DNA from: Mycobacterium sherrisii | GTDB taxonomy: Bacteria; Actinomycetota; Actinomycetes; Mycobacteriales; Mycobacteriaceae | Assembly: GCF_002102355.1 (NCBI RefSeq) | Contig: NZ_LQPT01000023.1 | Location: 79,675-143,674 of the forward strand | Reading direction: 5' to 3' | DNA: 64,000 nucleotides | Made by a program: the position numbers and the translations under genes | Part shown: positions 13,411 through 35,551 of the stretch, one piece after another | How positions within the stretch are numbered: the stretch's first letter is position 1 | Layout of the letters: every line of letters starts with the position of its first letter | The notes under the pieces: model-generated | The model's database searches: none | What the model was told of the DNA's origin: nothing | What the model saw: the letters and a program-made list of their open reading frames with translations, nothing else

Positions 13411-13455
13411 TGCGATCAAGCGGTTGATTTCCTTGATACGATCAAGCGATTGATT
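13405..13455. promoter_or_regulatory. Duplicated 26-bp operator in front of the monooxygenase operon
   Basis: A unit CTTGATRCGATCAAGCGRTTGAT occurs twice with a 26-bp period (starting at 13405 and 13431). Each unit contains the perfect inverted repeat CTTGAT-NCG-ATCAAG and a second overlapping repeat ATCAA-GCGR-TTGAT. The layout, directly upstream of the first monooxygenase gene and at the end of a TetR gene, is that of a cooperative repressor binding site. Confidence 0.65.
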
Positions 13456-13488
13456 ATAGAGTTGATCCCGACGAAGCGGAGTGGGGAC

Positions 13489-17679: not shown

Positions 17680-17914
17680 ACCTGGACGGTATACGCAGCG
17701 CGATTGTGGACCGTCGCGGGTCAACCTGAAGCCCGGTGCCGGCCCTCGCCCCGCGTCCAGCCGCGCGTGGCCAATACCCGGGCGCATCGAGCTCATCTCC
17801 GCCCCCGTGCTTCGCCGACTGATGGTGAAGCGAGGCGGGTTCCCCCAACCCGCCCAGGATTTCGTCATCGGCAGCGGGGCGCCGGGACCGAGTTCCTCGA
17901 GGCAGCAGCTTGCG

Positions 17915-20900
17915 TCACGGAGGGTCTTGCGTGGTCTGAGCCAGCCGGGACACGACGTCCGTCAATGACGCCCCGCCGAGCAAGTCCGCGACATCCAGTT
18001 CGTGGTCCAGCGCGATCTTGACCCGACGCCGGAACTCGAGTGCCTGCAACGAATCCAGGCCCATCGCAACCAGCGGCAGGTCGGTGTCGACCGGATCCTG
18101 GTTGGCCACACCGAAAGTGTCCAGCAGGATGCCGCGCACCGTGCTGGCGACGTCGGTCGGCCCACCGGCGACGACCGCCCGGTGGGCGGGTGAGGTCAGT
18201 TGCGAAAGCAGCGGCCCGTAGCCGTACGGCTCGAGCATCAGCCGGGCGCGATCCAGCTCGAGGGCCATGACGATGGCATTGTGACGCAGCGGGGCCAACC
18301 CCACCGCGAGTGCGTCGGCGGGCGGCATGGGGATGACGCCGATGGCGGCCAGCTGGGCGATGACGTCGGCGTCGAGGTCGAGGTGTACCTGCCACTGACC
18401 CCACTGCAGGGAAACACAATCCAGGCCCCCGGCGCGGAGCTCGTGCGCCATGGCGTCCAGCATGCGGTTGCTCGCCGCGTAGCTGATCTGTCCGCGACCG
18501 CCGATCGTCGCCGCCACCGAAGAGCAAAACAGCAGCCGGCAGCCCGCCGACCGCGGGTAGGCTTCCAGCACCTGAGCGATTCCGACCACCTTGGCGCCCA
18601 GCGCCCGGTCCAGCTGTTCGGCGGTGAGGTCCGGGGAGTCGGCGGCCGAATAGTCCACGGCGGCATGGATTATCAGATCCGCTGGGGTGTCGTGGTGCGC
18701 GCGAGCGAGTTGGGCCACCGCAGCCGGGTCGCGCACATCGCAGGGCGTCACCCGCACCTGCGTCCGGTTCGCGTGGGCCGAACCGATCTGGCGCAGTCCG
18801 GCCTCGACCGCGGCCGTCGCGCCTGATCTGCTGACCAACGTGATCAGACGCGCTCCGCGCCGCAGGTAGTGCTCACAGAACTTCAGGCCGAGGTGCCCGG
18901 TGCCGCCGATGATGAGCACATGATCGGGCGGCACACCAGCGGAGTCGACGGGAATATCGCGGTGCGCCAACCGCTTTGCATAGAGGGCATCGCCGCGGCG
19001 GGCCAACTCCGGCTCGTCCCGGGTATGTATCGCGGCCAGGATCGCGTTCGCCGACTCCGGCGTCGTCAAATCGGCGGGCAGATCGAGATGCTTGAAACCG
19101 ACGCCCGGGTATTCGGCCCCGATGCTGCGAAAACCCGCACTCGCGGCGGCATGCACCGGGTTCGGTGGTGCGTCGTCGGCCAGCACCACCTCACCGGCCA
19201 CCGTCACCAGCCAGCAGTCGGCGCCGGCACCGGCGAGTCGGGGTAGCCAGGTGCGGTCGGAGAAAAGCGCGGTGACCTCCTCGGCGGCGGCACGGTAGTC
19301 CGTGCGGGCCGACCGGGGAAGCAAGATCACCAGGGTATCGAGATCTGCTCGTGCACCGGTGTCTTCACCGTCGATCGGGTGAGCGGTGGCGCCCATATCG
19401 GTCGCCGCAGCGCACAGAGCGGCAATTAAGTCCGGCTGCGCCCGGGTGTAGTCGACGAAACCGATGGTGCGCGGCGGCACCAAGGAGCGGCGCGACAGCC
19501 GGACCCATTCCTCGGCGAACAGTTGGGGTCGTGCGATCGGCGCGGCCGGGTTGGGGTCCGGCGATGTGCCGGTGACCTGCTCGCCGCCGGCCAGCCACAG
19601 CCGGGTCTCGCTCATCCGGGTGTTGGGGAAGTCGAGCAACGGAAGTGGTGTGGGCCCGTCGGTGTCGGTGCGCAGGCACGACCACGGGTAGTCGGCGTGA
19701 TGAACTGCCAGCACCGCAAGACTGCGGGTGAACGCGGTCAAGTCGGTGACCGTGCGCTGCGACGTACCCACCACCAGGGGGTTACCGTTCGTCCTGGCCG
19801 CTGCGATGTTGTCCTGCATGGGCAGTTGCAACGTCGGGTGTTCGGCGAGTTCGACGAAGGTATCGGCGCCACGGGATATCGCGGCCGCGATTGCCTTGTC
19901 GAACCGAACGATGTTGCGCAGGTTGGAAAACCAGTACTGTCCGGTGGGTGTGCCCGCCGTGAGGGCGGCGCCGAACGTGGAGCCGAAACACTCGGTGCTG
20001 GTCTGCGGAAAACTGCGGTCTTGCAGTTGTCGTTGCAGGTCGGCGAGCAGCGTGTCGCCGACAGTGTCGATTCGGCTCGTGTGCGCGGGGAACCGGACGT
20101 CGATGACCCGGGCGAAGACGCCGCGCTCGGTCAACGTGTCCACGACACCCTGGATCGTGGCGCGTTCGCCCGAGATCCCCAGCATGCCAGGCGAATTGAT
20201 GACCGATAACTCCGCCCAGCCCGAGCAGCGTGCCAGCAGGTCTGCGCAGGTGTGGCGGTCGGTGGCGACGACCGCCATGGCGTAGTCGCCGGGGGCGAAC
20301 TCCTCGGCCGCCCGCGCGCGTAGGCCCACCACCGTGACGGCGTCGGCCAGCGAAACTCCGCCCGCTACGTAGGCCGCGGCAATCTCTCCTTGGCTGTGCC
20401 CGATCGTGATGTCCGGTGTGATCCCGAACGACCGCCACATCGCCGCCAGCCCGGCCATCTGGGTGAACAGCGCCGCCTGGATGGTGAGCGCGTTCCCGTC
20501 ATCCGGGATATGTTGATCGATAAGGTAATTCAGCGGCGACCGGCCCAGTCGGGCCTCGAATGCCTGGGCGCAGTGCTCCGCTTCCGAACGGAAGGCGGGG
20601 ACCGAGTCATAGAACAGTCGTCCCATGCCCGGATGTTGTATTCCCTGCCCGGGGAAGACGTAGGCGAGTCGTCGGTGGGTGGCGGGTGTTTCGGCACGGA
20701 CCACCGAAGGATGGTCGAACTCCCCGGCGATCGCGCGCAGCGCGGCCAGCAGGTCGGCCCGGACGCCGGCCAGCACCAGAGCACGGTGTGGGCGGGCGGT
20801 GCGGGTGCGAAACAACATCGCGGCAATGGCCTGTGGCTCGACCTCGGGATGGTTTGTGGCATAAGACAATAGCGCGGCAGCTTCGTCGCGCAACAGTTCC

Positions 20901-20965
20901 CGGGTGTTCGCCGACAGCAGGACGGGGATCGTGCCGTCCGGGAGTCGGTAGGTGCAAACGGTCAC
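17915..20965 (-). CDS. mbtD-like: MbtD-like polyketide synthase (AT-KR-ACP)
   Basis: This 1016-residue protein is close in length and domain order to mycobactin synthase MbtD (about 1004 residues). An acyltransferase domain carries GHSQG (Ser191) and an active-site His295 in the segment FPAH, which is neither the malonyl-type HAFH nor the methylmalonyl-type YASH. A ketoreductase has the GGTGHLG nucleotide motif and catalytic Ser/Tyr (SSVAAT...YAASN). A C-terminal carrier domain has GLDSL (Ser972). It lacks a ketosynthase, which is supplied by the MbtC-like protein encoded immediately upstream; MbtC TAA is directly followed by this GTG start. In mycobactin this module adds a reduced two- to four-carbon unit. 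Confidence 0.85.
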   Translation of the reverse strand: MTVCTYRLPDGTIPVLLSANTRELLRDEAAALLSYATNHPEVEPQAIAAMLFRTRTARPHRALVLAGVRADLLAALRAIAGEFDHPSVVRAETPATHRRLAYVFPGQGIQHPGMGRLFYDSVPAFRSEAEHCAQAFEARLGRSPLNYLIDQHIPDDGNALTIQAALFTQMAGLAAMWRSFGITPDITIGHSQGEIAAAYVAGGVSLADAVTVVGLRARAAEEFAPGDYAMAVVATDRHTCADLLARCSGWAELSVINSPGMLGISGERATIQGVVDTLTERGVFARVIDVRFPAHTSRIDTVGDTLLADLQRQLQDRSFPQTSTECFGSTFGAALTAGTPTGQYWFSNLRNIVRFDKAIAAAISRGADTFVELAEHPTLQLPMQDNIAAARTNGNPLVVGTSQRTVTDLTAFTRSLAVLAVHHADYPWSCLRTDTDGPTPLPLLDFPNTRMSETRLWLAGGEQVTGTSPDPNPAAPIARPQLFAEEWVRLSRRSLVPPRTIGFVDYTRAQPDLIAALCAAATDMGATAHPIDGEDTGARADLDTLVILLPRSARTDYRAAAEEVTALFSDRTWLPRLAGAGADCWLVTVAGEVVLADDAPPNPVHAAASAGFRSIGAEYPGVGFKHLDLPADLTTPESANAILAAIHTRDEPELARRGDALYAKRLAHRDIPVDSAGVPPDHVLIIGGTGHLGLKFCEHYLRRGARLITLVSRSGATAAVEAGLRQIGSAHANRTQVRVTPCDVRDPAAVAQLARAHHDTPADLIIHAAVDYSAADSPDLTAEQLDRALGAKVVGIAQVLEAYPRSAGCRLLFCSSVAATIGGRGQISYAASNRMLDAMAHELRAGGLDCVSLQWGQWQVHLDLDADVIAQLAAIGVIPMPPADALAVGLAPLRHNAIVMALELDRARLMLEPYGYGPLLSQLTSPAHRAVVAGGPTDVASTVRGILLDTFGVANQDPVDTDLPLVAMGLDSLQALEFRRRVKIALDHELDVADLLGGASLTDVVSRLAQTTQDPP

Positions 20966-22255
20966 TTACTCACCCGGCGAACCAGCAGGCATGGCGATGA
21001 GCGCGTGGGCATTGGCGCCGCCGGCGCCGAACGACGACACCGCCCCGTATCGGATGCCGTTCTTCGGTTGCCAGCGGTGCAGTTTCGTGGCCAGCTGCAC
21101 ACCCGTGCGGGTCCAGTCAACCTTTGTGGTGGGATTGTCCGAGAACAGGGTCGGCGGTATGTGACCGTGTTGGCCGGCCAGCAGCACCTTGATCAGCCCG
21201 AGTATCCCCGCCGCCGCCTGGGCGTGCCCGGCGTTCGATTTGATCGAGCCCAGGAAAGCCTGCGATCCCAACGCGCCGTAGGTCTCGAACAGGGCGGTCA
21301 ACTCCACCGGGTCGCCGGCGCGAGTCGCGGTGCCGTGGCCCTCGATCATGCCCACATCGGTCGCTTCGACTTCCGCCGCGTCCAGTGTCTTTCGGATCAC
21401 CTGCTGTTGCGCGTGCGCACGGGGAACCAGGATCGGCTGGCCTTTTCCGTTGTGGTTGGTGCGCACGGCGAGAATGCGCCCGTAGATCCGGTGGCCCAGC
21501 CGGCGCGCGCGTGCTTCGGTCTCGACGAGCAGCATTCCCGCGCCCTCGCTCCACACCGTGCCGGTGGCATCGTCGGCGTAGGCGCGGCAATGCCCGTCCT
21601 CGGAAAGGGCGTTGAGGCGGGCGAACTCGTAGAAGGCCAGCGGCGATCCCATCACGCACACCGCACCGGCCAGCGCCCATTCGCATTCGCCGCTCCGAAC
21701 GGCGTTGGCCGCCAACTGAAGTGCGGCCAACGACGAGGCGCAGGCGGAGTCGACGCACAGCGACGGGCCGGTCAGGCCGAGGCAGTGCGAAATGCGGGCC
21801 GCCGCCCCGAGTTGCCCGAGACTGACGACCCGATGTCCACTGACCGCGTCGGCGGCGGTGCCGGGCGGCCCGTACGCATACGGCGACATGCCGACGAAGC
21901 AGCCGCCGTCCTCGCCGTCCAGCGCATCGGGATTGATTCCCGCGTTTTCCAGCGCCTTCCAGGCCACCCGCAGTGCAACCCGCTGCTGGGGATGCATCGC
22001 CACAGCCTCGCGGTGCGTGACGCCGAACAAGGACGGGTCGAAAGTCGCTGCGTTGTCCAAAAATCCGCCCGCATCACACACCTGCCCCCAGCCGTCGAGC
22101 CGTGACACGGTCAGCAGATCGTCGATGGGCCAACCGCGGTCGCGCGGAAGGGCGCCGACGAGTTCCCGCGCTTCGGCAAGCGCGGCCCACAGGCCACCCA
22201 GGGTGTCGATCCCGCCGGGTGCCTCGACGGCCATGCCGGAAATGACGACGCTCAT
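20966..22255 (-). CDS. mbtC-like: MbtC-like stand-alone ketosynthase
   Basis: 429 residues, close to MbtC (about 444). It has the beta-ketoacyl synthase active-site cysteine in SACASS (Cys172), EGHGTAT with the first catalytic histidine and KSNAGH with the second. It performs decarboxylative condensation and would work with the AT-KR-ACP protein encoded next. It overlaps the upstream thioesterase stop by four bases (ATGA), so thioesterase, ketosynthase and AT-KR-ACP form one coupled operon. Confidence 0.87.
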   Translation of the reverse strand: MSVVISGMAVEAPGGIDTLGGLWAALAEARELVGALPRDRGWPIDDLLTVSRLDGWGQVCDAGGFLDNAATFDPSLFGVTHREAVAMHPQQRVALRVAWKALENAGINPDALDGEDGGCFVGMSPYAYGPPGTAADAVSGHRVVSLGQLGAAARISHCLGLTGPSLCVDSACASSLAALQLAANAVRSGECEWALAGAVCVMGSPLAFYEFARLNALSEDGHCRAYADDATGTVWSEGAGMLLVETEARARRLGHRIYGRILAVRTNHNGKGQPILVPRAHAQQQVIRKTLDAAEVEATDVGMIEGHGTATRAGDPVELTALFETYGALGSQAFLGSIKSNAGHAQAAAGILGLIKVLLAGQHGHIPPTLFSDNPTTKVDWTRTGVQLATKLHRWQPKNGIRYGAVSSFGAGGANAHALIAMPAGSPGE

Positions 22256-22980
22256 AGCAACAGCTTCGAGACCGCTTCGAGGTGGGATTCCAGGTAGAAG
22301 TGTCCGCCGTCGAACATGGTGACCGCCACCGCGTCGGCGTGCTTACCCCAGTCGTAGAGATCGCCCAGCGTGACGTTCGGGTCTCGATCCCCGGCCAGGG
22401 CGTGAACCGGTACGGCGACCCTGGCGCCCGGCGCGCAGCGGTACGCATCGAACGCCGCATAGTCGGCCTTGACCACCGGCAGCGCCAGCCTCATGATCTC
22501 CCGGTTGGCGAGCACGGCGGCGTCGGTGCCCTGCAGCGCTGCCAGATGGTCGAGCAGATCGTCATCGTCGACGGGATGGGGCGGCTTGTCGGCCACCCGG
22601 CACGGGGCGACCGCGGCCGAAACGTTGAGACGCCGCACCTCCATCCCGCTGGCTTCGGCGAGCCGCACGAATTCGAACGCCACGATGGCGCCCATGCTGT
22701 GGCCGAACGCGACGACCGGGCGCCCGGCGTGCTGGGACGCCGAGAATTCCTGGAATGCCCCCGCCGCCATGTCTTCCAGTGAGCCGAGCAATGGTTCGTT
22801 CGCGCGGTCTTGACGTCCGGGGTACTGGAAAACGATGACGTCGAACTGCGCACTGCAAAGCTTGGAGAATTCACGGTAGGCGGAGGCACCGGCCCCGGCA
22901 TGGGGAAAAGCGAGCAGCGAGGTGCCCTTCGCCGGTTCCGCAGGGTGGAACTGCCGCATCCATCCCAGCCCGCGCGGCAT
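22252..22980 (-). CDS. Type II thioesterase, MbtT-like
   Basis: 242 residues with the alpha/beta-hydrolase thioesterase pattern: AFPHAGAGASAYREF at the N-terminus, GHSMGA with nucleophile Ser95, AGDRD for the acid and GGHFYL for the histidine. Such free-standing thioesterases clear mis-primed carrier domains in NRPS/PKS systems or release product. In M. tuberculosis the comparable domain is, as I recall, at the end of MbtB; here it stands alone and no MbtB is nearby. It is the first gene of the leftward operon, 125 bp from an IdeR-like box. Confidence 0.85.
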   Translation of the reverse strand: MPRGLGWMRQFHPAEPAKGTSLLAFPHAGAGASAYREFSKLCSAQFDVIVFQYPGRQDRANEPLLGSLEDMAAGAFQEFSASQHAGRPVVAFGHSMGAIVAFEFVRLAEASGMEVRRLNVSAAVAPCRVADKPPHPVDDDDLLDHLAALQGTDAAVLANREIMRLALPVVKADYAAFDAYRCAPGARVAVPVHALAGDRDPNVTLGDLYDWGKHADAVAVTMFDGGHFYLESHLEAVSKLLL

Positions 22981-23104
22981 GCAACCACCTCGATCCTGTC
23001 AACCCGCCCGGCGGCGTACGGACCGTGTGCCCACCGGCCGCACCGCCCCCGCGCGTGCATGCACCGGGGCGTCCGGGTACCGCGGGCGTCCGCGAGACGA
23101 TAAC

Positions 23105-23123
23105 GTAGCGAAGGCTAACATAA
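23105..23123. promoter_or_regulatory. IdeR (iron) box in the divergent promoter of the PKS-NRPS locus
   Basis: GTAGCGAAGGCTAACATAA matches 14 of 19 positions of the mycobacterial iron box TTAGGTTAGGCTAACCTAA, including the whole core AGGCTAAC. It lies almost midway between the thioesterase start (22980) and the NRPS start (23245). IdeR-Fe represses siderophore genes at such sites, so both operons are predicted to be induced by iron starvation. Confidence 0.7.
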
Positions 23124-23244
23124 CTTCAGCCGCGACCAGTTGTCGCTCGGATGAGCGCCGATGAAGCGTCGTGCCAACCGAATCGCGCGGTCGCCCAGGC
23201 GGGCCGGCGGCGGTCTCGCCGATGAACGGAGAGTGAGTTAAGTC

Positions 23245-26200
23245 GTGGCGGACGACGCCAAAACGCTGCAGGAGAAACAACTCGAACTCCTGCGGCGGCG
23301 GATCGCCGAGAATGGCTTGGCTGCGACGGCCCCCGCTCAACCTCGGCAACTTGTGCCGGGTGAACGCTACCCACTGTCGTCGGGTCAGCTGCGGATGTGG
23401 TTCCTGCAGGCCATGGACCCCGCCGAGACCGCCCTCAATATCGGCGTTGCCTACCGGCTGGCGGGCGCTGTGGACGAAGCGCGGCTGCGGGCCGCGGTGA
23501 GCAATGTCGTTGCACGCCACGCCATCCTGCGCACCACCTACGGAGTGGACGCCGACGGCGAGCCGTACCAAACCTTTGCCGATCACGTCGAGACCCCGTG
23601 GCAAGTACGCGATTGGACCGGCCGGGCCGGCACGGACCTCGTCGAGGCGGCGCGACGCGAATTCGCCCGGCCCTTCGACCTGGCCAACGAACTGCCGCTG
23701 CGGATCACCCTGGGACGTCTGGCCGAGCGCGAGTTCGCACTGGTGCTCGTCGTGCACCACATCTGTTGGGACGACGACTCGTGGGCGGTCTTCCTGCACG
23801 AGCTGGGCGTGGCCTACGAAGATCGTCGGCTGGCCTTGCCGGCGACCCAGTTTGTCGCCGTCGAAGTTCTCGGCAATTCAGCCGCACCGTCCGATGACGA
23901 TCTCGATTACTGGCGCAAAACACTACGGCCGCTGCCCGAACCGCTGGAGCTGCCGGGCACAGCGAGCAGCCCGCCGGCGGCACAGCCGTCCAAACGCGCC
24001 GCCAGTCGAACCCGCATGCTGCCCGTGGAGTTGTTCACCCGGGTCGAAGACTTCGGCCGCAACCACTCCGCCACCCCATTCATGGTGTTGCTGGCGGCCT
24101 TCGGTGCGCTGGTGCGGCGCTACACCGGCGCCTCGGACTTCGTCGTCTCGGTGCCGGTAACCGAACGCAGCGCCGCGGCCGAGCAGGCCATCGGCTATTT
24201 CGGGAACACCCTGTTGCTGCGGATCGCGCCGGAGCCGTCGGACACGTTCGCATCGCTGGTCGGCGCCGTCCGGGAAACCTGCCTGAGCGGATTTGCCCAC
24301 CAGTCGGTGGGCATCGAACAGTTGGTCCGCGAGCTCAACCCGGAACGGACGTTCGGCGGCGGAGGCACCGATCAACTGGTCCGGTTGGGTTTCAGCCTGC
24401 GCAAAAGCGCGGACGCACTGGCGCTCGACGGGATCGCCGTGCGGCAACTGCAGGTGCCCGCGGTGACCACGCAGGTTCCACTTGCCGTCGCGGTGGTGCT
24501 CGACACCGGCGGCGTTTACGTCGAGTTCGAATACCAAACCGACGTCCTGGCGGCCGAGCTCGTCGAGCGGATGCAGGACCACTACCTTCGACTGCTGGAC
24601 AACGCGCTGTGCGAGCCGGACCGACGTCTGGCGAGTCTGCAGTTTTTCGGGTCGGACGAATTGGCCGCCATCCTCACGCAATCCCGGGGCGAGCGTGTCG
24701 ACCCACCCGCAAGCACCATGGTGGCGCTACTCGAAGCTGCGGCGACCGCCGCGCCGACGGCGGTCGCGCTGATCTCCGACGATGCGGAACTGACCTACGA
24801 ACAGCTGCACAGCCGGGCGAATCGGTTGGCACGCTGGCTGGTTGCGCAGGGGATCGGCGCCGACGACGTCATCGGACTGCGGATGACAACTTCGGTCGAG
24901 TTCATGGTCGCCGTGTTGGCGACGTTGAAGGCCGGTGCCGCGTATCTGCCGATCGACCCGGCTAATCCGGCCGATCGCATCGAGTACTTCGTCAGTGACG
25001 CCGCGCCGCGCCTGGTCTTCGGGCGCGAGGAATTCGACGCCGCAGAACGCGCCGCCGCTCCGATGCCGGATTCGGATCTCACCGACGCCGAACGGCTCCA
25101 TCCACTACATCCCGAGCACCTGGCCTACGTGATCTACACTTCCGGGTCCACCGGCCTGCCCAAGGGCGTGGCGGTGTCGCACCGCGCCCTGGCCGAGCAT
25201 CTGTACAGTTTCTTCACCGAGTGGACATTGACTCCCGAAGATATTGCTTTGCAATGGATTTCGGTGAGCTTTGATGCGTCGCTAGCGGAGATCTTCGGCG
25301 CGCTCGCCTTCGGCGCAAAGCTGGTCGTGCCCAAGCCGGATGCGTTCGGGGACATGGCCTACGTTGCCGAACTGATGAACCGCCACCACATCACCGTGTT
25401 GCAGATGGTGCCCTCGATGCTGAACGTGCTGCTGCTGCTCCCGGAGCCGGCACAGTGGAACAGCCTGCGGCACATGGCAGTCGGTGGCGAGCCGCTGTCC
25501 GGCGAGGTGGCCGACACGTTCACCCGGCATTTCGACGCGGAGCTGCGCAATCACTACGGCCCCACCGAGGCCGTCGTCTGCGCCACCCATATGCCGGTCG
25601 ACGGGCCGCAGGGCGTTGGCGTGGTTCCGATCGGTGTTCCCAATCGCAATGTCTTCGCCTATGTCCTGGACATGGATCTGCAGCTGGTGCCCGCGGGCGT
25701 GATCGGTGAACTCTACCTCGGTGGAGTGCAGCTGGCGCGTGGGTATCTGAACCAGCCGGTGTTGACCGCGGAGCGGTTTGTCGCGGACCCGTTCAACCCC
25801 GGCACGCGGATGTACCGGACGGGAGATCTAGTACGCCGCAACAGTTCTGGTGTCCTCGAGTTTCTTGGCCGGGCGGACGAACAGGTCAAGATCCGGGGGT
25901 ACCGGATCGAACCCGGCGAAATCGAGTCCGTGATTGCGGGGCACCCGGCCGTGCGGCATTGCCTGGTCGTCGTCGAAGACACGGTGGCGGGCCGCACGCT
26001 CGTGGCTTACGTGGTGCCGGCCGCGGCGGCGGAGGAGCCCGCGCGCACCCACGCGGACGTCGATCTCGGCGAGATACGCGCTTTTGCGGCATCGGCATTG
26101 CCGGAATACATGGTGCCCAGCGCCTTCGGGGTAATCACCGACATCCCGTTGACCAATAGTGGGAAACTGGATAAGCGGGCGCTGCCCGCACCCATGCCCA

Positions 26201-28281
26201 TCGCTGCGTCGAGCTATCGTGCACCGGCGACACCGACCGAACGTCGGGTCTGTGCCATCTTCGCCCGGCTGTTCGACTGCGAGCGCGTCGGTGCGCAGGA
26301 CTCGTTCTTTCAGTTGGGCGGTCATTCACTGCTGGCGGCCCGGCTCGTCGCGCAGATCCGCGCCGAGTTCGGTATCGAGCTCAGCGTCCGTGCCGTGTTC
26401 GATTCCCCGACCCCGGCCGGGCTAGCGGAAAGACTCGTCGCACAGTTTCTCGCCGACTACGACATTGACCTGGACGAGCTCGACGACGACGACATCGCCG
26501 CCGAGCCCCGGTCGCAGCGCCCGGCGCTCGTCGAATGCGCTCGGCCGGAACGCCTTCCGTTGTCGTACTCCCAGCTTGCGATGTGGTTTCAGTACCGAAT
26601 GGAGGGCCCGAGCGCGGGTGTGAACATTGCGATCGGACTCCGGATCGAGGGCCCGCTGGACGCCGCCGCACTCAACGCCGCGCTCAACGACGTGGTGCGC
26701 CGGCACGAGTCACTGCGCATGCACATTCGGGAGCACCAGGGCATGCCGTACCAATCGGCATCCCCGACGCGGGAACTGCAGCTGCCCGTCACCACGGTCG
26801 ATTCGACCGGAGTCGACGGGGCGGTGACCGAGCTGTGCCGGTACGCGTTCAAGCTGGAGTCCGAACCTTTGATCCGGGCAACGTTGTTGGCGCAGGACCC
26901 GAATCGGCATGTGCTGCTGTTGCTGGCGCACCACATCATCATCGACCACGCCTCCCTGAGAATCGTGCTGCACGACCTCACCGTCGCATACCGTGCGCGG
27001 CTGAAATCGACGGCGCCAGAGTGGGATCGGTTACCCATCGACTACGCCGACTACGTCCTTTGGCAGCACCGCGCCTTCGACGCGTCCAGCGAATGGGGTC
27101 ACGCCGAACTGGCATACTGGCGCGAAGCGTTGGCCGGGCTGCCCGAGGAGACCTCGGTCGCGCTCGACCACGTCCGACCGCCGGTGCTGGGCCGTCACGC
27201 CGCGGTGTCCAGCGTGCTGGTGCCGGCTGCGCGCCGGGCGGCACTTGCCGAACTCGCCGAGCACAGCAGCGCCACCGAGTTCATGGTCTATCAGGCCGCG
27301 CTTGCGGTGGTGTTGCACAAGCTCGGCGGCGGCAACGACATCGCCATCGGCACTCCGGTGGCTGCCCGGGTCGACCCCGGCACGGTCAACGTGATCGGCT
27401 TGCTCGCCAACGTGGTGGTGCTGCGCACCGACCTATCCGGCACGCCCTCGCTGCGCGACGTCATCACACGCAGCCGCGACGTGGTGCTCGACGCGTTCGC
27501 GCACCAGGAAGTGCCCATCGCGCGGCTGGTCGAGGAGATCAATCCGCCCCGCACACGATCACGTAACCCGTTGTTCCAGAACATGCTTCACTTCCACGGC
27601 GACGACTGGGCACTGGCGCAGCGTGACCTCACCGAGGCGGGCGGAACCAAGATTGTGCCCCTGCGGTCAGAGTTCGACGTCTCGCTGTTGGATCTGGACG
27701 TCGGAATCAACGTGACCCCCGATGGGGGCCTCGAGGTGCGGGTCGTCGGCAACGCGGACCTCTACCAGCCCACAACCGTCGCCCTCATCGCCGACGCGTT
27801 GACCGCCGTCATCGAGGCCTTCGCCACGACACCCGACGCCGCCGTGTCAACGCTGGAGCTGTTGCCGGAAGCCGCACTGGACCGGCTGCGCCGCGCGCCG
27901 ACGCCCAACGTCGGCGGGCGGTCACAACCGCTCACCGCGGCGGCCGCACAAACCCAGCAAGTCCTGATCGAGGTGCTCGAAGAACTGCTGGAAATCGGCG
28001 GTGTGGCGGCGACCGACAACTTCTTCGCCCTCGGCGGAGACAGCATCATCTCGATCAAGTGGTCGGCACGAGTCATCGAGCGGGGATTGGCCCTGACCCC
28101 CGCAATGGTGTTCGAGCACGCAACGATCGGCGAGTTGGCCGCGGCCGTCGACGCGGCCACCGATTCCCCTGCCGCGGCAGCCGATTCGACACCGGAACGT
28201 GATTACACGCCGATGAGTGCGTCGGGCCTGAGCACCGACGCGTTGGCGGACCTCACCGCGGCCTGGGAGAATCGTCAATGA
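23245..28281 (+). CDS. MbtE-like non-ribosomal peptide synthetase (C-A-T-C-T)
   Basis: 1678 residues, almost the length of mycobactin MbtE (about 1682). Domains: condensation at about 40-470, with HHICWDD at 171-177; adenylation at about 490-990, with TSGSTGLPKG at 632 and core FDASLAEIF at 676; carrier LGGHS (Ser1028); a second condensation domain with HHIIIDH at 1229-1235; and a second carrier LGGDS (Ser1600) with no adenylation domain in between. The final Gly of the HHxxxDG motif is replaced in both condensation domains. My hand-read specificity code is roughly D-A-A-S-A-G-H-V-C, which I cannot assign. The start is GTG, after an iron box. An NRPS gene follows 7 bp later. Confidence 0.85.
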   Translation: MADDAKTLQEKQLELLRRRIAENGLAATAPAQPRQLVPGERYPLSSGQLRMWFLQAMDPAETALNIGVAYRLAGAVDEARLRAAVSNVVARHAILRTTYGVDADGEPYQTFADHVETPWQVRDWTGRAGTDLVEAARREFARPFDLANELPLRITLGRLAEREFALVLVVHHICWDDDSWAVFLHELGVAYEDRRLALPATQFVAVEVLGNSAAPSDDDLDYWRKTLRPLPEPLELPGTASSPPAAQPSKRAASRTRMLPVELFTRVEDFGRNHSATPFMVLLAAFGALVRRYTGASDFVVSVPVTERSAAAEQAIGYFGNTLLLRIAPEPSDTFASLVGAVRETCLSGFAHQSVGIEQLVRELNPERTFGGGGTDQLVRLGFSLRKSADALALDGIAVRQLQVPAVTTQVPLAVAVVLDTGGVYVEFEYQTDVLAAELVERMQDHYLRLLDNALCEPDRRLASLQFFGSDELAAILTQSRGERVDPPASTMVALLEAAATAAPTAVALISDDAELTYEQLHSRANRLARWLVAQGIGADDVIGLRMTTSVEFMVAVLATLKAGAAYLPIDPANPADRIEYFVSDAAPRLVFGREEFDAAERAAAPMPDSDLTDAERLHPLHPEHLAYVIYTSGSTGLPKGVAVSHRALAEHLYSFFTEWTLTPEDIALQWISVSFDASLAEIFGALAFGAKLVVPKPDAFGDMAYVAELMNRHHITVLQMVPSMLNVLLLLPEPAQWNSLRHMAVGGEPLSGEVADTFTRHFDAELRNHYGPTEAVVCATHMPVDGPQGVGVVPIGVPNRNVFAYVLDMDLQLVPAGVIGELYLGGVQLARGYLNQPVLTAERFVADPFNPGTRMYRTGDLVRRNSSGVLEFLGRADEQVKIRGYRIEPGEIESVIAGHPAVRHCLVVVEDTVAGRTLVAYVVPAAAAEEPARTHADVDLGEIRAFAASALPEYMVPSAFGVITDIPLTNSGKLDKRALPAPMPIAASSYRAPATPTERRVCAIFARLFDCERVGAQDSFFQLGGHSLLAARLVAQIRAEFGIELSVRAVFDSPTPAGLAERLVAQFLADYDIDLDELDDDDIAAEPRSQRPALVECARPERLPLSYSQLAMWFQYRMEGPSAGVNIAIGLRIEGPLDAAALNAALNDVVRRHESLRMHIREHQGMPYQSASPTRELQLPVTTVDSTGVDGAVTELCRYAFKLESEPLIRATLLAQDPNRHVLLLLAHHIIIDHASLRIVLHDLTVAYRARLKSTAPEWDRLPIDYADYVLWQHRAFDASSEWGHAELAYWREALAGLPEETSVALDHVRPPVLGRHAAVSSVLVPAARRAALAELAEHSSATEFMVYQAALAVVLHKLGGGNDIAIGTPVAARVDPGTVNVIGLLANVVVLRTDLSGTPSLRDVITRSRDVVLDAFAHQEVPIARLVEEINPPRTRSRNPLFQNMLHFHGDDWALAQRDLTEAGGTKIVPLRSEFDVSLLDLDVGINVTPDGGLEVRVVGNADLYQPTTVALIADALTAVIEAFATTPDAAVSTLELLPEAALDRLRRAPTPNVGGRSQPLTAAAAQTQQVLIEVLEELLEIGGVAATDNFFALGGDSIISIKWSARVIERGLALTPAMVFEHATIGELAAAVDAATDSPAAAADSTPERDYTPMSASGLSTDALADLTAAWENRQ

Positions 28282-28288
28282 GGCGCGC

Positions 28289-31200
28289 GTGACGCAGGCC
28301 CCGCCGTCGATCGAGGATGTCCTTGCCCTCAGCCCGCTGCAGGAAGGGCTCTTCGCGCTGTACCGGCTCGCCGAGGACAGCGTCGACCTCTACACGATGC
28401 AGTTCGAGTTCGACGTTGACGGACAGGTGGACCTTCAACTGCTGCGCCGCAGCGCGCAGGCCATGCTGGAACGGCACCCGAATTTGCGTGCCGCGTTCTG
28501 GGATCACGGCGTGCCGAAGCCCGTGCAGATCATCCCGACCGCGGCCGAGTTTCCCTGGTTCGAAAGGACCGCGACGGCAACCGAATTCGCCCGCATCGCC
28601 CGATCGGAACGACACCGCCCGTTCGACTTGAGCCGCGGGCCGGCCATGCGCATCGTCATGCTGACCGTGCCCGGCCAGACACGACGCCGGATGATCCTCA
28701 CCGCGCATCACATCCTGGTCGACGGCTGGGCACTCGCCGTGTTCTTCACCGAGATGCTGGCCGTCTATCGTGCCGGGGGATCGTTGTCGGCGCTGCCGCC
28801 CGCCCGGCCCTACCGCGACTACATCGTCTGGTTGGCCCAACAGGACCGCGGGGCCGTGCTGGCCAGGTGGCGTGAGTATCTGTCGAGTGTCTCCGGACCA
28901 TTGATCATGGCCGAAAAGGCGGTCGCGGCGGGCACCGTGGTGCCCCAGCAGACCGGACTGGTGCTGTCGCCCGCCGACACAACCCGGCTGCGCGGGTGGG
29001 CGGGCCGAAACGGCCTCACCCTCAATACCGCGGTGCTGTTCGCGTGGTCCGTCGTGCTCGCCCGCCTCAGCGGCCGTCCCGATGTGGTGTTCGGCACCAT
29101 CGTCTCCGGTCGCCCCGAAGACCTGCCCGGGGTCGAGACCATGGTGGGGCTGTTCATCAACACCGTGCCGGTGGTGCACCGCGTGAGCGACCAGACTCCC
29201 GTGGTCGAGCAGTGTGCACAGCTGCAGCGTGAGCTGTCGGTGATGCGTGACATCGGTTATGTGGGCCTGTCCGAACTGCAGCGTCCCCAGGGCGGCGGGC
29301 CGCTTTTCGACACCCTGTTCGTATTCGAAAACGCGCCGATCGATCAGGCGATCCAACCGATCACCACGCCCGACGGTGCCCGGTTCTGCCCGGTGCAGAT
29401 GGAGAGCCTGACACACTACCCGTTGACCGGGGTGTCGCACCTGGCCGGCGACGCACTGGTGGTGGTCGTCGAGGCGATTCAGGAAGCGTTGCCAACTTTT
29501 CCCGCCGCGCAGATCTGCGCCCGGATGGTTGCGGTGCTGCGCCAACTCCCCGACATCGGCGAGGGCACCCCCGCCCTGTTCGACGTGCTCACCCCGGCCG
29601 AGCATGCGCAACTGACAGATTGTGCAGCCCAACCGATCCCCGTCGCCAACTCGGTGTGGGAGATGTTCGAAGGACAGGCCCGCGCGGTACCCGACGCGGT
29701 CGCCCTGTCGGCCGGCGCTTCCGAGCGGTACACCTACGCGGAACTGCACGCGCGCGCCTGCCGGCTGGCGGGGGAATTGGCACACCGCGGCGTGGGTCCG
29801 GAATCGGTGGTGGCGCTAGTGCTTCCGCGCGCGGCGCGATCGATCGTGGCGATCCTGGCGGTGCTCGGGGCCGGCGCGGCGTATGTGCCGGTCGACGTCA
29901 CGCTCCCCGCCGCCCGCATCGAGGCCATTTTCCGGCGGGCCGAACCGGTCCTGGCGATCACCGAGCAGGCCTACGCGGAACTGGTCGGTGCCCGCGCACC
30001 GGCCCTGATCCTCGACGATCGGGAAGTGGCCGAACGTCTTTCGCGGCTGCCCGCGGCTGCACCGGTGGTCCACCGCGACCCGGACCACAGCTGCTATGTG
30101 ATATTCACCTCGGGCTCGACCGGCGAACCGAAGGGCGTCGTCGGCACCAACGGTGCGGTATTGACCTACTTCGCCGACCACCGCGAGCGCGTTTACCGTC
30201 CGGTATCGGCGCGGCTGGGCCGCGCGCTGCGGATCGCCCACACGTGGTCGTTGAGCTTCGACGCCTCCTGGCAGCCGATGATCGGTCTGCTCGATGGTCA
30301 CCGGGTGCATCTGTTCGACGCAGAGGAGATGCGTGACGCGGATCGACTGGTCCGCGGGATGGCCGATCACCAGATCGACATGATCGACACCACCCCGTCG
30401 ATGTTCGTGCAACTTCGCGCCGCCGGGCTGCTGCGGCGGGCCCTGCCGGTCTTGGCCCTGGGCGGCGAAGCGATCAACACCACGCTGTGGGAGCAGCTGC
30501 GATCGTCGTCCGCCGGCGCGGTCTTCAACTGTTACGGGCCCACCGAAGCCACCGTCGAGGCGGTAGTGGCACCCGTAGCGGAGTACGAAACACCGACAAT
30601 TGGCATCGCCAACGCCGGAACATATTGCTATGTACTGGATCCGGCGTTGCGAGCGGTTCCCGGCGGCGCTGTCGGCGAGCTGTATCTGTCCGGCCTGCAG
30701 CTGGCCCGCGGCTATCTCGGCAGTCCCGCGATGACTGCCAGTCGGTTCGTGGCGGATCCGTTTCGCCGGGGATGGCGGATGTATCGCACGGGCGATCTGG
30801 TGCGTCGGCTACCGCATGGCGGGTTGGCCTTCCTGGGGCGGGACGACAGCCAGGTCAAGATTCGCGGCTATCGCGTCGAGCTGGGCGAGGTCGAGGCCGC
30901 ACTGACCGCCCAACGCGGGGTGCGAGCGGCGGCCGTGTCCGTGCTGCGTCGTGCCGGCGGTGCCGTGTTGGTGGGCTTCGTCGTCGCACAACCGGATACC
31001 GATGACCACCTGGCGGCGCTGCGGGATCAGCTGCCGCCGCATATGGTTCCGGCGCGCATCGTGGCGCTGCCGCGTCTTCCGATGACTACCAACGGCAAGC
31101 TCGATCTCGCCGCGCTGGACCGGCTGGCCGAAGATGCACTCGTCCGCGTCACACCGGGAACCGGCGCGTCCACCGACACCGAGCGGACGCTGTGCGAGGT

Positions 31201-32791
31201 CTTCAAGGAACAGTTTTCCGGTGCGGTGCCACATGTCGATGACGACTTGTACGCCCTCGGATTGGACAGCATCCTCGCGATTTCGCTGGTGCACGAGCTG
31301 CGCCGGCACGGATGGCCGGTGAGTCCCCGAATGGTGTTGGAAGCAACGACAATTCGTCAGCTCGCGGGTGCGATCGATGCGGCCGGGGCGCAACCGGCGC
31401 ATGCGGACGCCGAATACGGCGTGGTACCCCCGCTGCCGATCGTGTCCTGGTTGTTCGAGTACGGGAACTACCGGCGGTTCACCAATACCGCTGTGCTTCG
31501 GCTGCCGGACGAGGTCGACCTTGGGGCAATCGAAGGCATATTGCAGACGCTGCTCGACGGTCACGACGTGCTGCGGGCGGTGCTGACCGACACGGCCGAA
31601 GGGCCGCGGCTGCTCACCCGTGAACCCGGTGTGGTCTCTGCCGCGGACGTTCTCACCCGTGTCGAGCTATCCGGCGATTGCGAACTGGGGCCGGCCCTTT
31701 CCGAGGCCGCCCCGCGCATCATGGACAAGATCGATCCGCGTGCCGGCACCCTGCTGCAGGCGGTGTGGTTCACCGGCGCCGCCAGCGGTGCGGCGCTGCT
31801 GCTCACGATCCACCACCTGGCGGTCGACGTCGTCTCCTGGCATACCATCCTCGGCGATATCACCGCGGCGTGGAACTCCTTGCAAATGGGCGCGGCGCCG
31901 AAGACGTTGCCCGAGTTCACTTCCTACCGGCGTTGGTCGCAATTGATGTGGGCGCGAGCGTCGGCTCCGGAAGTGTTGGTGCAGCGCGACTACTGGGCCG
32001 GCCAGGTGCGTGACCCCGATCCGGCGTTGGGAGTCCGGTATCCGGACCCCACCCGGGACACCTGGTCGAGTTTGCAGGTGGGGGAGGTGGCGACACCGGT
32101 CGCCGAGACCGAGCGGGTGCTCGCCAGCCTGACCCGGGAAGCCGGACTGCACGAATTCCTGCTGGCCGCACTGACCTTGGCGGTGACCGCCTGGCGGCGC
32201 GAACGCGGCCAAGATGCAACCACGGGAACGTTGATCACGCTCGACGGTCACGGCCGCCGCGATGATGTACTGGGCACCGACGCCACCAACACCGTCGGTT
32301 GGTTCACCACGGCCTATCCGGTGCGGCTTCCGGCGGGCCCCACGACCCCGGCGGCCGGGCGGGACGAGGTCGACCCGGCAGCGGCGCGCGCGCTGCTCGA
32401 ATCGGTGGTCGGGCAGCTGGCGGCGATCCCCCACGAAGGCCTCGATTACGGGTTGCTGCGTTATGTGAACCGGGTTCCGGAGCTGTGCAACGCGCCCGAA
32501 CCTCAGATCATGTTCAGCTACCTGGGGCGCCTGGATCTGGCGAGCACCACCGACCAGCCCTGGACGCTGCTCACGGGATCTGACATCGAGGGGCTGCCGG
32601 TGGCGGCCGAACCGGACCTGCCGCTGCGCTTCGCGGTGTACATCAGCGCGCATGTGCGTCGCACGTCGCGGGGGCCGCAACTGGTGACCAGCCTGCTCTG
32701 GGGCGATGCCCTGTTCACGGCGTCCGACATCGACCGGCTGACGCACTGCTGGCGGCGCAGCATCACCGCGATCGCTCGCGGCCTGGCATAG
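28289..32791 (+). CDS. MbtF-like non-ribosomal peptide synthetase (C-A-T-E)
   Basis: 1500 residues from a GTG start seven bases after the upstream NRPS stop; MbtF is about 1461. Condensation domain with HHILVDGW (His140-141, Asp145), adenylation domain with TSGSTGEPKG at 607 and FDASWQP at 657, carrier LGLDS (Ser994), then an epimerisation-type domain with HHLAVD at 1175, DGHGR at 1319 and NTVGWFT near 1337. FDASWQP is a core I associate with siderophore NRPSs that load ornithine- or lysine-like residues. Hand-read code: about D-A-Q-S-A-G-C-V-E. MbtF likewise ends in an extra C/E-type domain linked to the terminal lysine of mycobactin. Confidence 0.85.
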   Translation: MTQAPPSIEDVLALSPLQEGLFALYRLAEDSVDLYTMQFEFDVDGQVDLQLLRRSAQAMLERHPNLRAAFWDHGVPKPVQIIPTAAEFPWFERTATATEFARIARSERHRPFDLSRGPAMRIVMLTVPGQTRRRMILTAHHILVDGWALAVFFTEMLAVYRAGGSLSALPPARPYRDYIVWLAQQDRGAVLARWREYLSSVSGPLIMAEKAVAAGTVVPQQTGLVLSPADTTRLRGWAGRNGLTLNTAVLFAWSVVLARLSGRPDVVFGTIVSGRPEDLPGVETMVGLFINTVPVVHRVSDQTPVVEQCAQLQRELSVMRDIGYVGLSELQRPQGGGPLFDTLFVFENAPIDQAIQPITTPDGARFCPVQMESLTHYPLTGVSHLAGDALVVVVEAIQEALPTFPAAQICARMVAVLRQLPDIGEGTPALFDVLTPAEHAQLTDCAAQPIPVANSVWEMFEGQARAVPDAVALSAGASERYTYAELHARACRLAGELAHRGVGPESVVALVLPRAARSIVAILAVLGAGAAYVPVDVTLPAARIEAIFRRAEPVLAITEQAYAELVGARAPALILDDREVAERLSRLPAAAPVVHRDPDHSCYVIFTSGSTGEPKGVVGTNGAVLTYFADHRERVYRPVSARLGRALRIAHTWSLSFDASWQPMIGLLDGHRVHLFDAEEMRDADRLVRGMADHQIDMIDTTPSMFVQLRAAGLLRRALPVLALGGEAINTTLWEQLRSSSAGAVFNCYGPTEATVEAVVAPVAEYETPTIGIANAGTYCYVLDPALRAVPGGAVGELYLSGLQLARGYLGSPAMTASRFVADPFRRGWRMYRTGDLVRRLPHGGLAFLGRDDSQVKIRGYRVELGEVEAALTAQRGVRAAAVSVLRRAGGAVLVGFVVAQPDTDDHLAALRDQLPPHMVPARIVALPRLPMTTNGKLDLAALDRLAEDALVRVTPGTGASTDTERTLCEVFKEQFSGAVPHVDDDLYALGLDSILAISLVHELRRHGWPVSPRMVLEATTIRQLAGAIDAAGAQPAHADAEYGVVPPLPIVSWLFEYGNYRRFTNTAVLRLPDEVDLGAIEGILQTLLDGHDVLRAVLTDTAEGPRLLTREPGVVSAADVLTRVELSGDCELGPALSEAAPRIMDKIDPRAGTLLQAVWFTGAASGAALLLTIHHLAVDVVSWHTILGDITAAWNSLQMGAAPKTLPEFTSYRRWSQLMWARASAPEVLVQRDYWAGQVRDPDPALGVRYPDPTRDTWSSLQVGEVATPVAETERVLASLTREAGLHEFLLAALTLAVTAWRRERGQDATTGTLITLDGHGRRDDVLGTDATNTVGWFTTAYPVRLPAGPTTPAAGRDEVDPAAARALLESVVGQLAAIPHEGLDYGLLRYVNRVPELCNAPEPQIMFSYLGRLDLASTTDQPWTLLTGSDIEGLPVAAEPDLPLRFAVYISAHVRRTSRGPQLVTSLLWGDALFTASDIDRLTHCWRRSITAIARGLA

Positions 32792-32798
32792 ACACGGC

Positions 32799-34223
32799 AT
32801 GGAAAGGCGTGCGATGGATCGGATTGGTGCGCTGACGGCCGGAGCCCCGTATCCGGTGCAGACGAGGTTCGCGTTCCGCACGGGCGTGACCTGCGTGACG
32901 ACGTCCACGGGAGCGGTGTTGCTCGACCCGCCGCACAGTGAGAAGCTGGCGAAACTGGCGCCCGGCGGGCTGCAGGCACTCAAGACGTTGAATTCCGGGC
33001 CGGCGACGCTGTCGGAGATGTCCACGTCGGCTGAACTCGATGAGGTGGGCGCCCTGCTCGATCGCCTCGCCGCGGCAGGGTGGCTGACGATTACGGTGCG
33101 CGACCAGGGCCGGGATCTCTACTCGGTAGTACCCTTCGCCCGACCGGCATCCCGGCCACCCGGGGGGCCGCCCGCGCAATCGGTGCAGCCGCTGGTGATG
33201 TCGAAGTTCGCTGTGCTGCACCGTGACTCGGCGGGTTTCGTCCTCGAGCATCCGCTGGGCTGGTGCGATGTACGCATCCATGATGCGAATCTTCTTGCGC
33301 TACTTGACGGTTCGATACCAGACCGGCACGGCGTGACGGGGGCCGTCGCGGCACAGTTCCTGCGGGATCTGCGCTGGAGTGCAATCCTTGTTTCGGCCGG
33401 CGCCGACGAGGCCGAGTTCGACACGATTGCCTGGAGTGCGCCCGATTTGTGGTTCCATCGCCGCAGCACGCTGGGGCAGCGCACGGTCGCCTGGGAGGAC
33501 TTCGGTCCGACCAGGTGGGCAAGGGGCCGATTCCCGCAACCTCCCGCACGCCGGATGAATTACCCCAGCGAACCGATAGTCCTGTCCACCCCGGACCTCA
33601 CCACCACGCGGGCGCAGGACCCCACATTGACGGCGGTGCTGGAAGACCGGATCTCGACCCGGGCATTCGACGACAGCCGTCCGATGACGGTGCAGCAGCT
33701 GTCCGAGTTGCTCTACCGCACGGCACGCACCCGCGGAATCGTCCCGGTCGGCGACGGCGAGCACCTGCTCTCCCGTCCCTACCCTTCGAGCGGCGGGCTG
33801 TACGAGCTCGAGCTCTATCCAGTGGTGCGCAATGTCGCCGGACTGCGGCCGGCCATGTACCACTACGACTCGTTCGACCACGTGCTGCGCCCGGTGGCCA
33901 CCGCGGATTCGCGGCCGGTGTCGCAGCTGATCAAGGCGGCGTCGGCGACGCTGGCTGGTGGGGCCGAGCCGCAAGTGCTCGTCGTCATTGCCGCGCGCTC
34001 CGGCCGGATCACCTGGACTTACCAACAGATCTGTTACGCAACGATTCTCAAGGATGTTGGGGTGTTGATGCAGACGATCTATCTGGCCGCAACGGCGATG
34101 AAGCTAGGGGCCTGCGCCCAGGGATACAGCGACACCGCCGCATTTGCTGCCGCCACCGGCGTCGACGAGCTGCAGGAGTGCAGCGTAGGCAGCATCGTGG
34201 TGGGGTCACCGGTGCGAAATTAA
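32799..34223 (+). CDS. SagB-type flavin-dependent oxidoreductase (nitroreductase fold)
   Basis: 474 residues from ATG 32799; an ATG at 32814 with GGAAAGG in front is an alternative. An N-terminal region of about 200 residues precedes a SagB/McbC-like nitroreductase domain, recognised by RISTRAFDD, SRPYPSSGGLYELELYPVV, MYHYDSFDHVL and a C-terminal LMQTIYLAATAMKLGACAQGY. In thiazole/oxazole-modified peptides these FMN enzymes oxidise azolines to azoles; related domains also serve NRPSs. It follows the MbtF-like gene by 7 bp and is very likely its partner. No heterocyclisation domain is encoded beside it, so the substrate is uncertain. Confidence 0.78.
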   Translation: MERRAMDRIGALTAGAPYPVQTRFAFRTGVTCVTTSTGAVLLDPPHSEKLAKLAPGGLQALKTLNSGPATLSEMSTSAELDEVGALLDRLAAAGWLTITVRDQGRDLYSVVPFARPASRPPGGPPAQSVQPLVMSKFAVLHRDSAGFVLEHPLGWCDVRIHDANLLALLDGSIPDRHGVTGAVAAQFLRDLRWSAILVSAGADEAEFDTIAWSAPDLWFHRRSTLGQRTVAWEDFGPTRWARGRFPQPPARRMNYPSEPIVLSTPDLTTTRAQDPTLTAVLEDRISTRAFDDSRPMTVQQLSELLYRTARTRGIVPVGDGEHLLSRPYPSSGGLYELELYPVVRNVAGLRPAMYHYDSFDHVLRPVATADSRPVSQLIKAASATLAGGAEPQVLVVIAARSGRITWTYQQICYATILKDVGVLMQTIYLAATAMKLGACAQGYSDTAAFAAATGVDELQECSVGSIVVGSPVRN

Positions 34224-34246: not shown

Positions 34247-35551
34247 TCACACCGGCAGTGCGGGCTCGTGGTGCGGGTGGCCCGAGTGTCGGACGGCGGT
34301 CCCCACGAAGGGCGCCCGCAGCGTCGCGACCACGTGACGACGGTTGAAGATCAGCGCGCCGACCGCGATCACTAGATAGCTGCCGCAGAGCACCAGGCGC
34401 CCGGTGGTCGAGGTGATCGGGAACTGAATGGCGAACAGCGCCAACAACGTCCAGGCGGAGATCCGGCTGAAGCGCAGCGCCAAGATGACCGCGATGCCCA
34501 TCAGGGTCTGGCACGCCGTCAACAACACCTCTTCGGTCTGGCGCGCGTCGAGCGCCAGCGAGAGGCCGCCGCCGCCCAGCAGATGGGCCAGCGGCAGCGA
34601 GCCGATCAGCAGGGTCCACTGGTTGACCTTGGACGAGATCAGCGTGGCGATGGCCGCGGTGCCCTTACCGCGCGTGGCGAAAATGATCGCGATGATGAAC
34701 TCGGGCGCCTCTGAAGCCAGTGGCGCCAGCCACTGCACCAGCAGGAACCGATCGATACCCAGCTCGGTGCCGGCGGCGACGAGATTGTCGGCAAACGGTT
34801 TGGCGCACAGCAGGATCACTGCGCCGGCGACCACGAACAGGCTGCCGACGACGAGACGGCGGGTCCGGTCGGAGAGCTCACCCAGCGCGGCGGCGGTGCC
34901 GACCAGGTCGGGCTCCTCCACGTCGCCGTGGCTGACCTTGTAGAGGTAAAAACCGAACCAGGCCAGCAACGCCAACCCCATCGTGAGGTGGATTTCGTCG
35001 GTGACCGGTAGCACGAACGCGACGACACCGGCGATCAGCAGGAAGCCGAGTTCGACGCGGTTTGCCGGCTCGAGCCGCAGGCCGGTGAGTTTCGCGGTGC
35101 CGAACCTGCGTGCGGCGAGGATGCTCACCAGCACCACGACCGGCCAGCCCAACCCCATCAGCAGCCGGTTTGAGCCGGTCATGTTGGCCGCCGCGTACTG
35201 CGTGTAACTCGGGTTGTGGCCGGAGACGTATGCGTAATACAGGTCGACGGCGTATTCCGGCAGCACCGCCACCAATGCGAGGGCCGCAATGGCCAGGCCA
35301 CCCGAGACGTCGATCTGCGCGGCCTCGGCCGCCCAGGCCAGCAGGAAGCTGGCGGATACGACGGCGGCGCCGAAGATCAACAGGGCGGCCACCGGGTCCG
35401 GGTGCAACCCCATGATCCGCACGACGACCGCGGGGGCGATGAAGAGCGCGGTGAGCAGTGCCGACCGGACGAGGGTGCGTCGCGGAAGCCGCCAGGCCCT
35501 CGACACCGCCGTCGCCGCGGCGGGTGCCCTGTCAGTGGCGAGCATCGTCAT
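34247..35551 (-). CDS. CaCA-type cation/calcium antiporter
   Basis: 434 residues with about ten to eleven hydrophobic segments and two acidic alpha-repeat motifs, ALVAVLPEYAVDLYYAY and APLASEAPEFIIAIIFA, typical of the Ca2+/cation antiporter superfamily. It converges on the SagB-type gene with a 23-bp gap. An IdeR-like box lies 142 bp upstream of its start, so it may be iron regulated and linked to the siderophore-like locus, for instance in counter-ion transport. The transported ion is not known. Confidence 0.82.
   Translation of the reverse strand: MTMLATDRAPAAATAVSRAWRLPRRTLVRSALLTALFIAPAVVVRIMGLHPDPVAALLIFGAAVVSASFLLAWAAEAAQIDVSGGLAIAALALVAVLPEYAVDLYYAYVSGHNPSYTQYAAANMTGSNRLLMGLGWPVVVLVSILAARRFGTAKLTGLRLEPANRVELGFLLIAGVVAFVLPVTDEIHLTMGLALLAWFGFYLYKVSHGDVEEPDLVGTAAALGELSDRTRRLVVGSLFVVAGAVILLCAKPFADNLVAAGTELGIDRFLLVQWLAPLASEAPEFIIAIIFATRGKGTAAIATLISSKVNQWTLLIGSLPLAHLLGGGGLSLALDARQTEEVLLTACQTLMGIAVILALRFSRISAWTLLALFAIQFPITSTTGRLVLCGSYLVIAVGALIFNRRHVVATLRAPFVGTAVRHSGHPHHEPALPV

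Follow-up and report, generated by a model that had tools for sequence, protein, structure and literature searches.

A siderophore-type locus of the nocobactin kind (nbt) was found in the window, i.e., the whole stretch of 64,000 nucleotides analysed here (C23:79675-143674 of a Mycobacterium assembly of 5.56 Mb). Its genome was coded G000; other genomes, contigs and loci carry G, C and L codes. The locus consists of nbtABC on one strand and nbtDE-sagB on the other, and it encodes no starter enzyme. It is probably a nocobactin-type line in which MbtA and MbtB of the separate mycobactin (mbt) locus would prime NbtD in trans. With less assurance, we also lean to a wider proposal for mycobacteria with both lines (double genomes): one MbtA and one Cy-A-T starter would serve both lines, either starter copy may survive, an NbtD that lost NbtF would have come to dock with MbtB through a convergent R-to-L change in its N-terminal helix, and the starter would set the branching. 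The new point is the missing starter, together with one starter for two lines across the sampled genomes.

Six open reading frames (ORFs) were located at 17915-34223, all where the sequence-only reading, an earlier model-made note on this DNA, had placed them. Domains were assigned by Pfam and families by NCBIfam-type models with cut-offs. The ORFs, a helix-like stretch of NbtD and an intergenic site are listed below (aa, amino acids).

17915..20965, minus strand: NbtC-type polyketide synthase (PKS), AT-KR-ACP, 1016 aa; NF037941 PKS_NbtC 1324.8 bits against a cut-off of 1150; AT GHSQG and ACP GLDSL motifs
20966..22255, minus strand: NbtB-type ketosynthase, 429 aa; Pfam ketoacyl-synt; SACASS active-site region; 50% identity to the own MbtC region
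22252..22980, minus strand: NbtA-type thioesterase, 242 aa; Pfam Thioesterase; GHSMG
23105..23123, plus strand: putative IdeR-type iron box GTAGCGAAGGCTAACATAA between the divergent operons; 5 of 19 positions mismatched to the consensus
23245..28281, plus strand: NbtD-type nonribosomal peptide synthetase (NRPS), C-A-T-C-T, 1678 aa; Pfam; A-domain code DAAQAGHVCK
23275..23319, plus strand: helix-like stretch of NbtD, KQLELLRRRIAENGL, residues 11-25; L13 (codon 23281-23283) is the converged position
28289..32791, plus strand: NbtE-type NRPS, C-A-T-E, 1500 aa; Pfam; A-domain code DAQDAGCVEK, identical to own MbtF
32799..34223, plus strand: SagB/ThcOx-type azoline oxidase, 474 aa; TIGR03605 143.1 bits against a cut-off of 78.4; Pfam Nitroreductase and ThcOx

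The catalytic motifs looked for in the locus proteins were present, and all reading frames were open. The first C domain of NbtD retained HHxxxD, and the final C-family domain of NbtE was of E type, with HHLAVDVVSW. Both NRPS layouts given by the sequence-only reading were borne out by Pfam and the E-type motif, and its SagB-type oxidoreductase by TIGR03605. The solved structures closest to SagB were a SagB-type dehydrogenase (8pz5) and CyaGox (5lq4); BmdC, an NRPS oxidase, and McbC were weaker. Because of these nearest relatives, azoline oxidation is the likely reaction of SagB.

The PKS passed the NbtC model and failed the MbtD model, with 758.7 bits where 1150 are needed. Therefore, as judged by these models, the locus is a nocobactin-type line and not a rearranged mbt cluster. 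The sequence-only reading had proposed a second, mycobactin-like line with likely homology to MbtC-F and with a gene order rearranged relative to M. tuberculosis, in which mbtB-C-D-E-F would all point the same way. The second line stood, because a genome-wide search found the mbt locus elsewhere, on contig C101. Its mycobactin kind did not, given the two model scores, and identity to the own Mbt proteins was only 33-50%, i.e., NbtC/MbtD 33%, NbtB/MbtC 50%, NbtD/MbtE 41% and NbtE/MbtF 41% (NbtA/MbtT 36%). The possibility that the window holds the only, rearranged mbt cluster was ruled out by the same models and the C101 locus.

The C101 locus comprises an MbtA-like ligase, MbtB, MbtT, MbtC, MbtD, MbtE, MbtF, MbtG and MbtH (MbtI was outside the search). 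MbtD scored 1357 bits on the MbtD model, and MbtG and MbtH were recognized in Pfam as Lys_Orn_oxgnase and PF03621. No SagB was among the C101 genes listed. The two loci are alike in their parallel domain layout and in the identical A-domain code of MbtF and NbtE, and differ in sequence, PKS family and gene order. The first lysine code was DAAQAGHVCK in NbtD versus DVGHPGFVNK in MbtE. The own MbtE (G000:C101:27881-34468, 2195 aa) has a second adenylation domain after its second C domain. By pattern search, a second HHxxxD motif was found in NbtE and none in the own MbtF.

The gene order was compared across the genus. A sample of 297 genomes, including the own genome, was scanned with the NbtC model, which was passed in 55 genomes with 56 loci in total. 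Of the other 55 loci, 53 were retrieved, and G007 and G010 were left out at contig edges. The fullest order was NbtG(+), NbtC(-), NbtB(-), NbtA(-), GNAT(-), NbtD(+), NbtE(+), NbtF(+), SagB(-). NbtD was divergent from NbtAB in 49 of the 53 loci, so that the order nbtCBA / nbtDE, read at first as rearranged, is ordinary for mycobacterial nocobactin-type loci. A GNAT gene accompanied 29 of these 49 loci. Of the 36 loci with NbtF inside the stretch, 24 had SagB. Among 50 loci with NbtD, including the window, 38 had NbtF (2 on another contig), two lay beside MbtB (G033, G171) and ten had neither (G000, G216, G270, G046, G220, G040 with two loci, G030, G213 and G201). Apart from the window, its type, i.e., no NbtG, GNAT or NbtF and SagB on the plus strand, was found in G216 / L004 alone. 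L004 comes from Mycobacterium sp. 1100029.7 and is taken to belong to G216 because of a contig break.

Two side observations concern these loci. In G039, G081, G122 and G063 (L098, L102, L124, L129), a reverse hybrid was found: NbtA-NbtB-NbtC lay within 20 kb of canonical MbtF/MbtG, MbtE was also near in three, and no NbtD was in the stretch, which leaves these loci outside the NbtD tree. The NbtF-less nbt islands L125 and L126 (G040, G213) were 99.97% identical over 20 kb versus 74-77% for the mbt regions, so a recent transfer between species is likely; their nearest tree neighbour was the plasmid locus L015.

The locus of the window does not look self-contained, because it lacks NbtF, NbtG and GNAT, which are found in most relatives. 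No Cy domain was found within window positions 10000-40000, hence neither NbtF, the Cy-A-T starter, nor MbtB is in the locus. The NbtG hydroxylase was absent from the locus, and the sole MbtG-like gene of the genome lies on C101. No GNAT acyltransferase (NbtH/GNAT) was in the locus, and the best relatives genome-wide (33% and 27% identity) lie on C76 and C81; on C81, an MbtK-like GNAT adjoins an acyl-CoA dehydrogenase. A short-chain dehydrogenase/reductase (SDR) gene at 16834-17868 lies directly downstream of nbtC, the position of NbtG in many relatives. A flavoprotein monooxygenase at 13450-15288 resembles pentalenolactone D synthase PtlE, under the cut-off of that model.

The starter genes were counted with the own MbtB as query. 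One MbtB/NbtF-type gene (>1000 bits) was found in all 55 nbt genomes, and in the own genome this single gene is MbtB. In six of the 55, an NRPS of roughly 3000 aa contained an additional match of 38% identity. Of 148 genomes sampled from the genus, a set that overlaps the nbt sample, 117 had one starter (in G118, one gene in two pieces) and 31 had none at E 1e-220. Both MbtD and NbtC exceeded their cut-offs in 18 of the 55 nbt genomes. MbtB was kept in nine of these (G000, G216, G270, G046, G030, G220, G040, G213, G122; at least 60% identity) and NbtF in nine (G071, G218, G074, G221, G158, G091, G057, G215, G006; 51-54%). NbtD was present in 17 of the 18; none was in the retrieved stretch of G122 (L124). 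All 22 genomes tested had a single MbtA, which sits in the locus of the retained starter. MbtG-like genes numbered one in each MbtB-keeper and two in each NbtF-keeper.

The N-terminal stretch of NbtD is a putative docking helix. At the position of window residue 13, R or Q was found in 42 loci, and L in the nine NbtF-less loci of double genomes. This was the sole column separating the two groups among 1642 NbtD columns, i.e., those passing a gap filter out of 1806, in a scan run after the helix was noticed. L105 and L118 (MbtB adjacent, R) were counted among the 42. L128 (G201) was skipped by ORF picking and is outside the tree and the column count; its R was read separately. When these three are counted as NbtF-less, L is found in 9 of 12 loci. 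MbtE bears L at the same position (RLEL) in all 19 readable mbt-only genomes (20 retrieved) and in each MbtB-keeping double genome that could be read, 7 of the nine (MbtE was outside the retrieved stretch in G040 and G030). No MbtE was found in L162, and L014 was an unrelated match. In every one of the 11 MbtB-less genomes read, of which two have a broken MbtD, the MbtE helix was either missing or degraded.

The change of this residue was placed on a quick NbtD tree (LG+G4). The nine NbtF-less loci, a group defined before the tree, were rejected as a single clade by the approximately unbiased (AU) test (p 1.9e-12). Two smaller groups tested were defined after the tree; one of them, the window and G216 with M. 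colombiense, was also rejected as a clade (p 0.0005). The helix residue changed four times on the best tree, with three contrasts on well-supported branches. Inheritance of L from one ancestor is ruled out by the tree and the AU test, and the NbtF-less loci of double genomes arose at least three times independently.

Purifying selection on the nbt locus was read from the ratio of nonsynonymous to synonymous substitution rates (dN/dS) between the window and G216 / L004. The values were 0.12 for NbtB, 0.15 for NbtA, 0.18 for NbtD (1310 codons), 0.21 for NbtE and 0.17 for SagB; NbtC was outside the comparison. MbtB gave a similar value of 0.17. By these values, the reduced nbt locus is in use.

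From these data, a route to two products is proposed. MbtA would activate salicylate, and MbtB would make salicyl-oxazoline. From MbtB, this starter would go to MbtE for mycobactin, or it would enter the nbt line in trans, with the N-terminal helix of NbtD as the point of entry. NbtD and NbtE would add two (hydroxy)lysines, with N-hydroxylation of lysine supplied by a shared MbtG. NbtB-NbtC would contribute a hydroxy acid, presumably with a long chain like that of nocobactins, and the assembly would end at NbtE. Oxidation of the oxazoline by SagB may give an oxazole. The cell would be expected to make a nocobactin-like oxazole siderophore in addition to ordinary mycobactin.

Several points weigh against priming by a shared starter. 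The sign test on the three supported contrasts gave p 0.25, and with three contrasts it cannot reach 0.05. G033, G171 and G201, which are NbtF-less with MbtB present and no MbtD match, kept R in the helix and also have no SagB. In G033 and G171, the tail of MbtB is that of a typical MbtB and does not resemble NbtF. Thus, the helix residue alone does not decide, and a requirement of L for any MbtB-NbtD pair is ruled out by these three genomes. On one reading, no helix change need follow where the donor serves one client, but a change would be forced where the donor is shared with MbtE. MbtD and MbtE of MbtB-less genomes (L137-L149) gave dN/dS of 0.2-0.4 in the pairs compared, with neither starter nor helix; they are still constrained, so a line may persist without both. 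One starter per genome is not absolute either, because M. avium TH135 has a chromosomal MbtB and an MbtB-like gene on plasmid pMAH135 (PMC4324632).

Some of these points suit a different start of the nbt line, in which no salicyl-oxazoline is used and (acyl)hydroxylysine is loaded on NbtD, giving a product with no cap or with another cap. The locus has no starter gene, three NbtF-less genomes show no helix change, and the constrained, helix-less MbtE of MbtB-less genomes allows for starterless lines. However, the first C domain of NbtD has kept HHxxxD. SagB, whose expected substrate is an azoline, is in all NbtF-less double-genome loci (window, L078, L079, L086, L087, L111, L125, L126, and L004 for G216) versus two-thirds of NbtF-bearing ones (24/36), and among the 9 NbtF-less genomes whose MbtB is separate, 8 have MbtD. 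It is reasonable to regard this start as unlikely.

A decaying remnant of a once-complete nbt locus would explain the absence of NbtF, NbtG and GNAT, and is considered very improbable, since the reading frames are open, the catalytic motifs are conserved, dN/dS is close to that of MbtB and the iron box is retained. Least credible is a rearranged duplicate of the mbt cluster: for all the homology to MbtC-F and the similar protein lengths, the NbtC and MbtD models, the low identity to the own MbtC-F, the usual nbt order and the C101 locus are judged to have refuted it already.

Regulation by iron, as supposed in the sequence-only reading, seems plausible for the locus in which MbtA and MbtB would prime NbtD. 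The box GTAGCGAAGGCTAACATAA is real though weak with its 5 mismatches, and the search found none at 3 mismatches or fewer. At up to 5 mismatches, 2 sites lie in the 64-kb window; 200 Markov-1 simulations averaged 0.04, and a single one reached 2. Relatives have an equivalent box, often TTAGCGAAGGCTAACATAA, no more than 450 bases ahead of nbtD. Of 53 such upstream stretches (one of them, L124, lies ahead of MbtE), 36 had up to 5 mismatches and 17 had none. Among random stretches of the same loci, which may contain boxes themselves, 67 of 2120 had up to 5. The nbt locus is thus possibly iron-repressed. A sodium/calcium exchanger gene (PF01699) at 34247-35551 adjoins sagB, with an iron-box-like site of 5 mismatches upstream at 35693-35711; in L004, the comparable stretch has a site of 4 mismatches.

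The nocobactin NA cluster nbtA-H of N. farcinica is alike in the domain layout of NbtA-E and in a SagB-type dehydrogenase in some subfamilies (PMC7413640). In nocobactins, the hydroxy acid is reported to bear a long alkyl chain, and NbtF lies in a second cluster in almost 45% of Nocardia species (PMC7413640). In Nocardia, the split-off NbtF serves the nocobactin line, whereas the sole starter here is that of the other siderophore line, mbt. In our sample, G088, G092 and G050 have loci that count as nbt by score; these contain NbtF and SagB and lack GNAT. These genomes may belong to the abscessus group. In mycobactin Ab of M. abscessus, the MbtC-MbtD moiety carries the long alkyl chain, and an N-epsilon acyl group is absent (PMC9505556). 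It is made by a single siderophore line with its own starter, unlike here.

The 'mycobactin' genes of plasmids pMAH135 and pFLAC0070_1 share NbtA-E with the window, and NbtC is 54% identical (PMC4324632, PMC11877719). These plasmids carry GNAT and, unlike the window, have their own MbtB/NbtF-like NRPS beside NbtE and an R in the NbtD helix. A plasmid origin of the window is unsupported, with plasmid homologues only 54% identical. In the open-licence literature searched, no publication was found that describes starter sharing or the reciprocal loss of MbtB and NbtF. Duplicated mbtC-F genes are reported in nontuberculous mycobacteria (PMC10667711). If the shared starter is true, it would help explain this duplication while a second mbtB is rare.

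Should a single MbtA/MbtB pair prime both siderophores, a compound that blocks salicylate loading would act on the two lines at once. The repeated losses would also be a natural experiment on how docking specificity of assembly lines is rewritten, an open question in NRPS engineering. Enzymes are shared between siderophore clusters in cross-talk of the rhodochelin type. The present case differs in that a homologous second megasynthase appears to be supplied by the starter module of the first.

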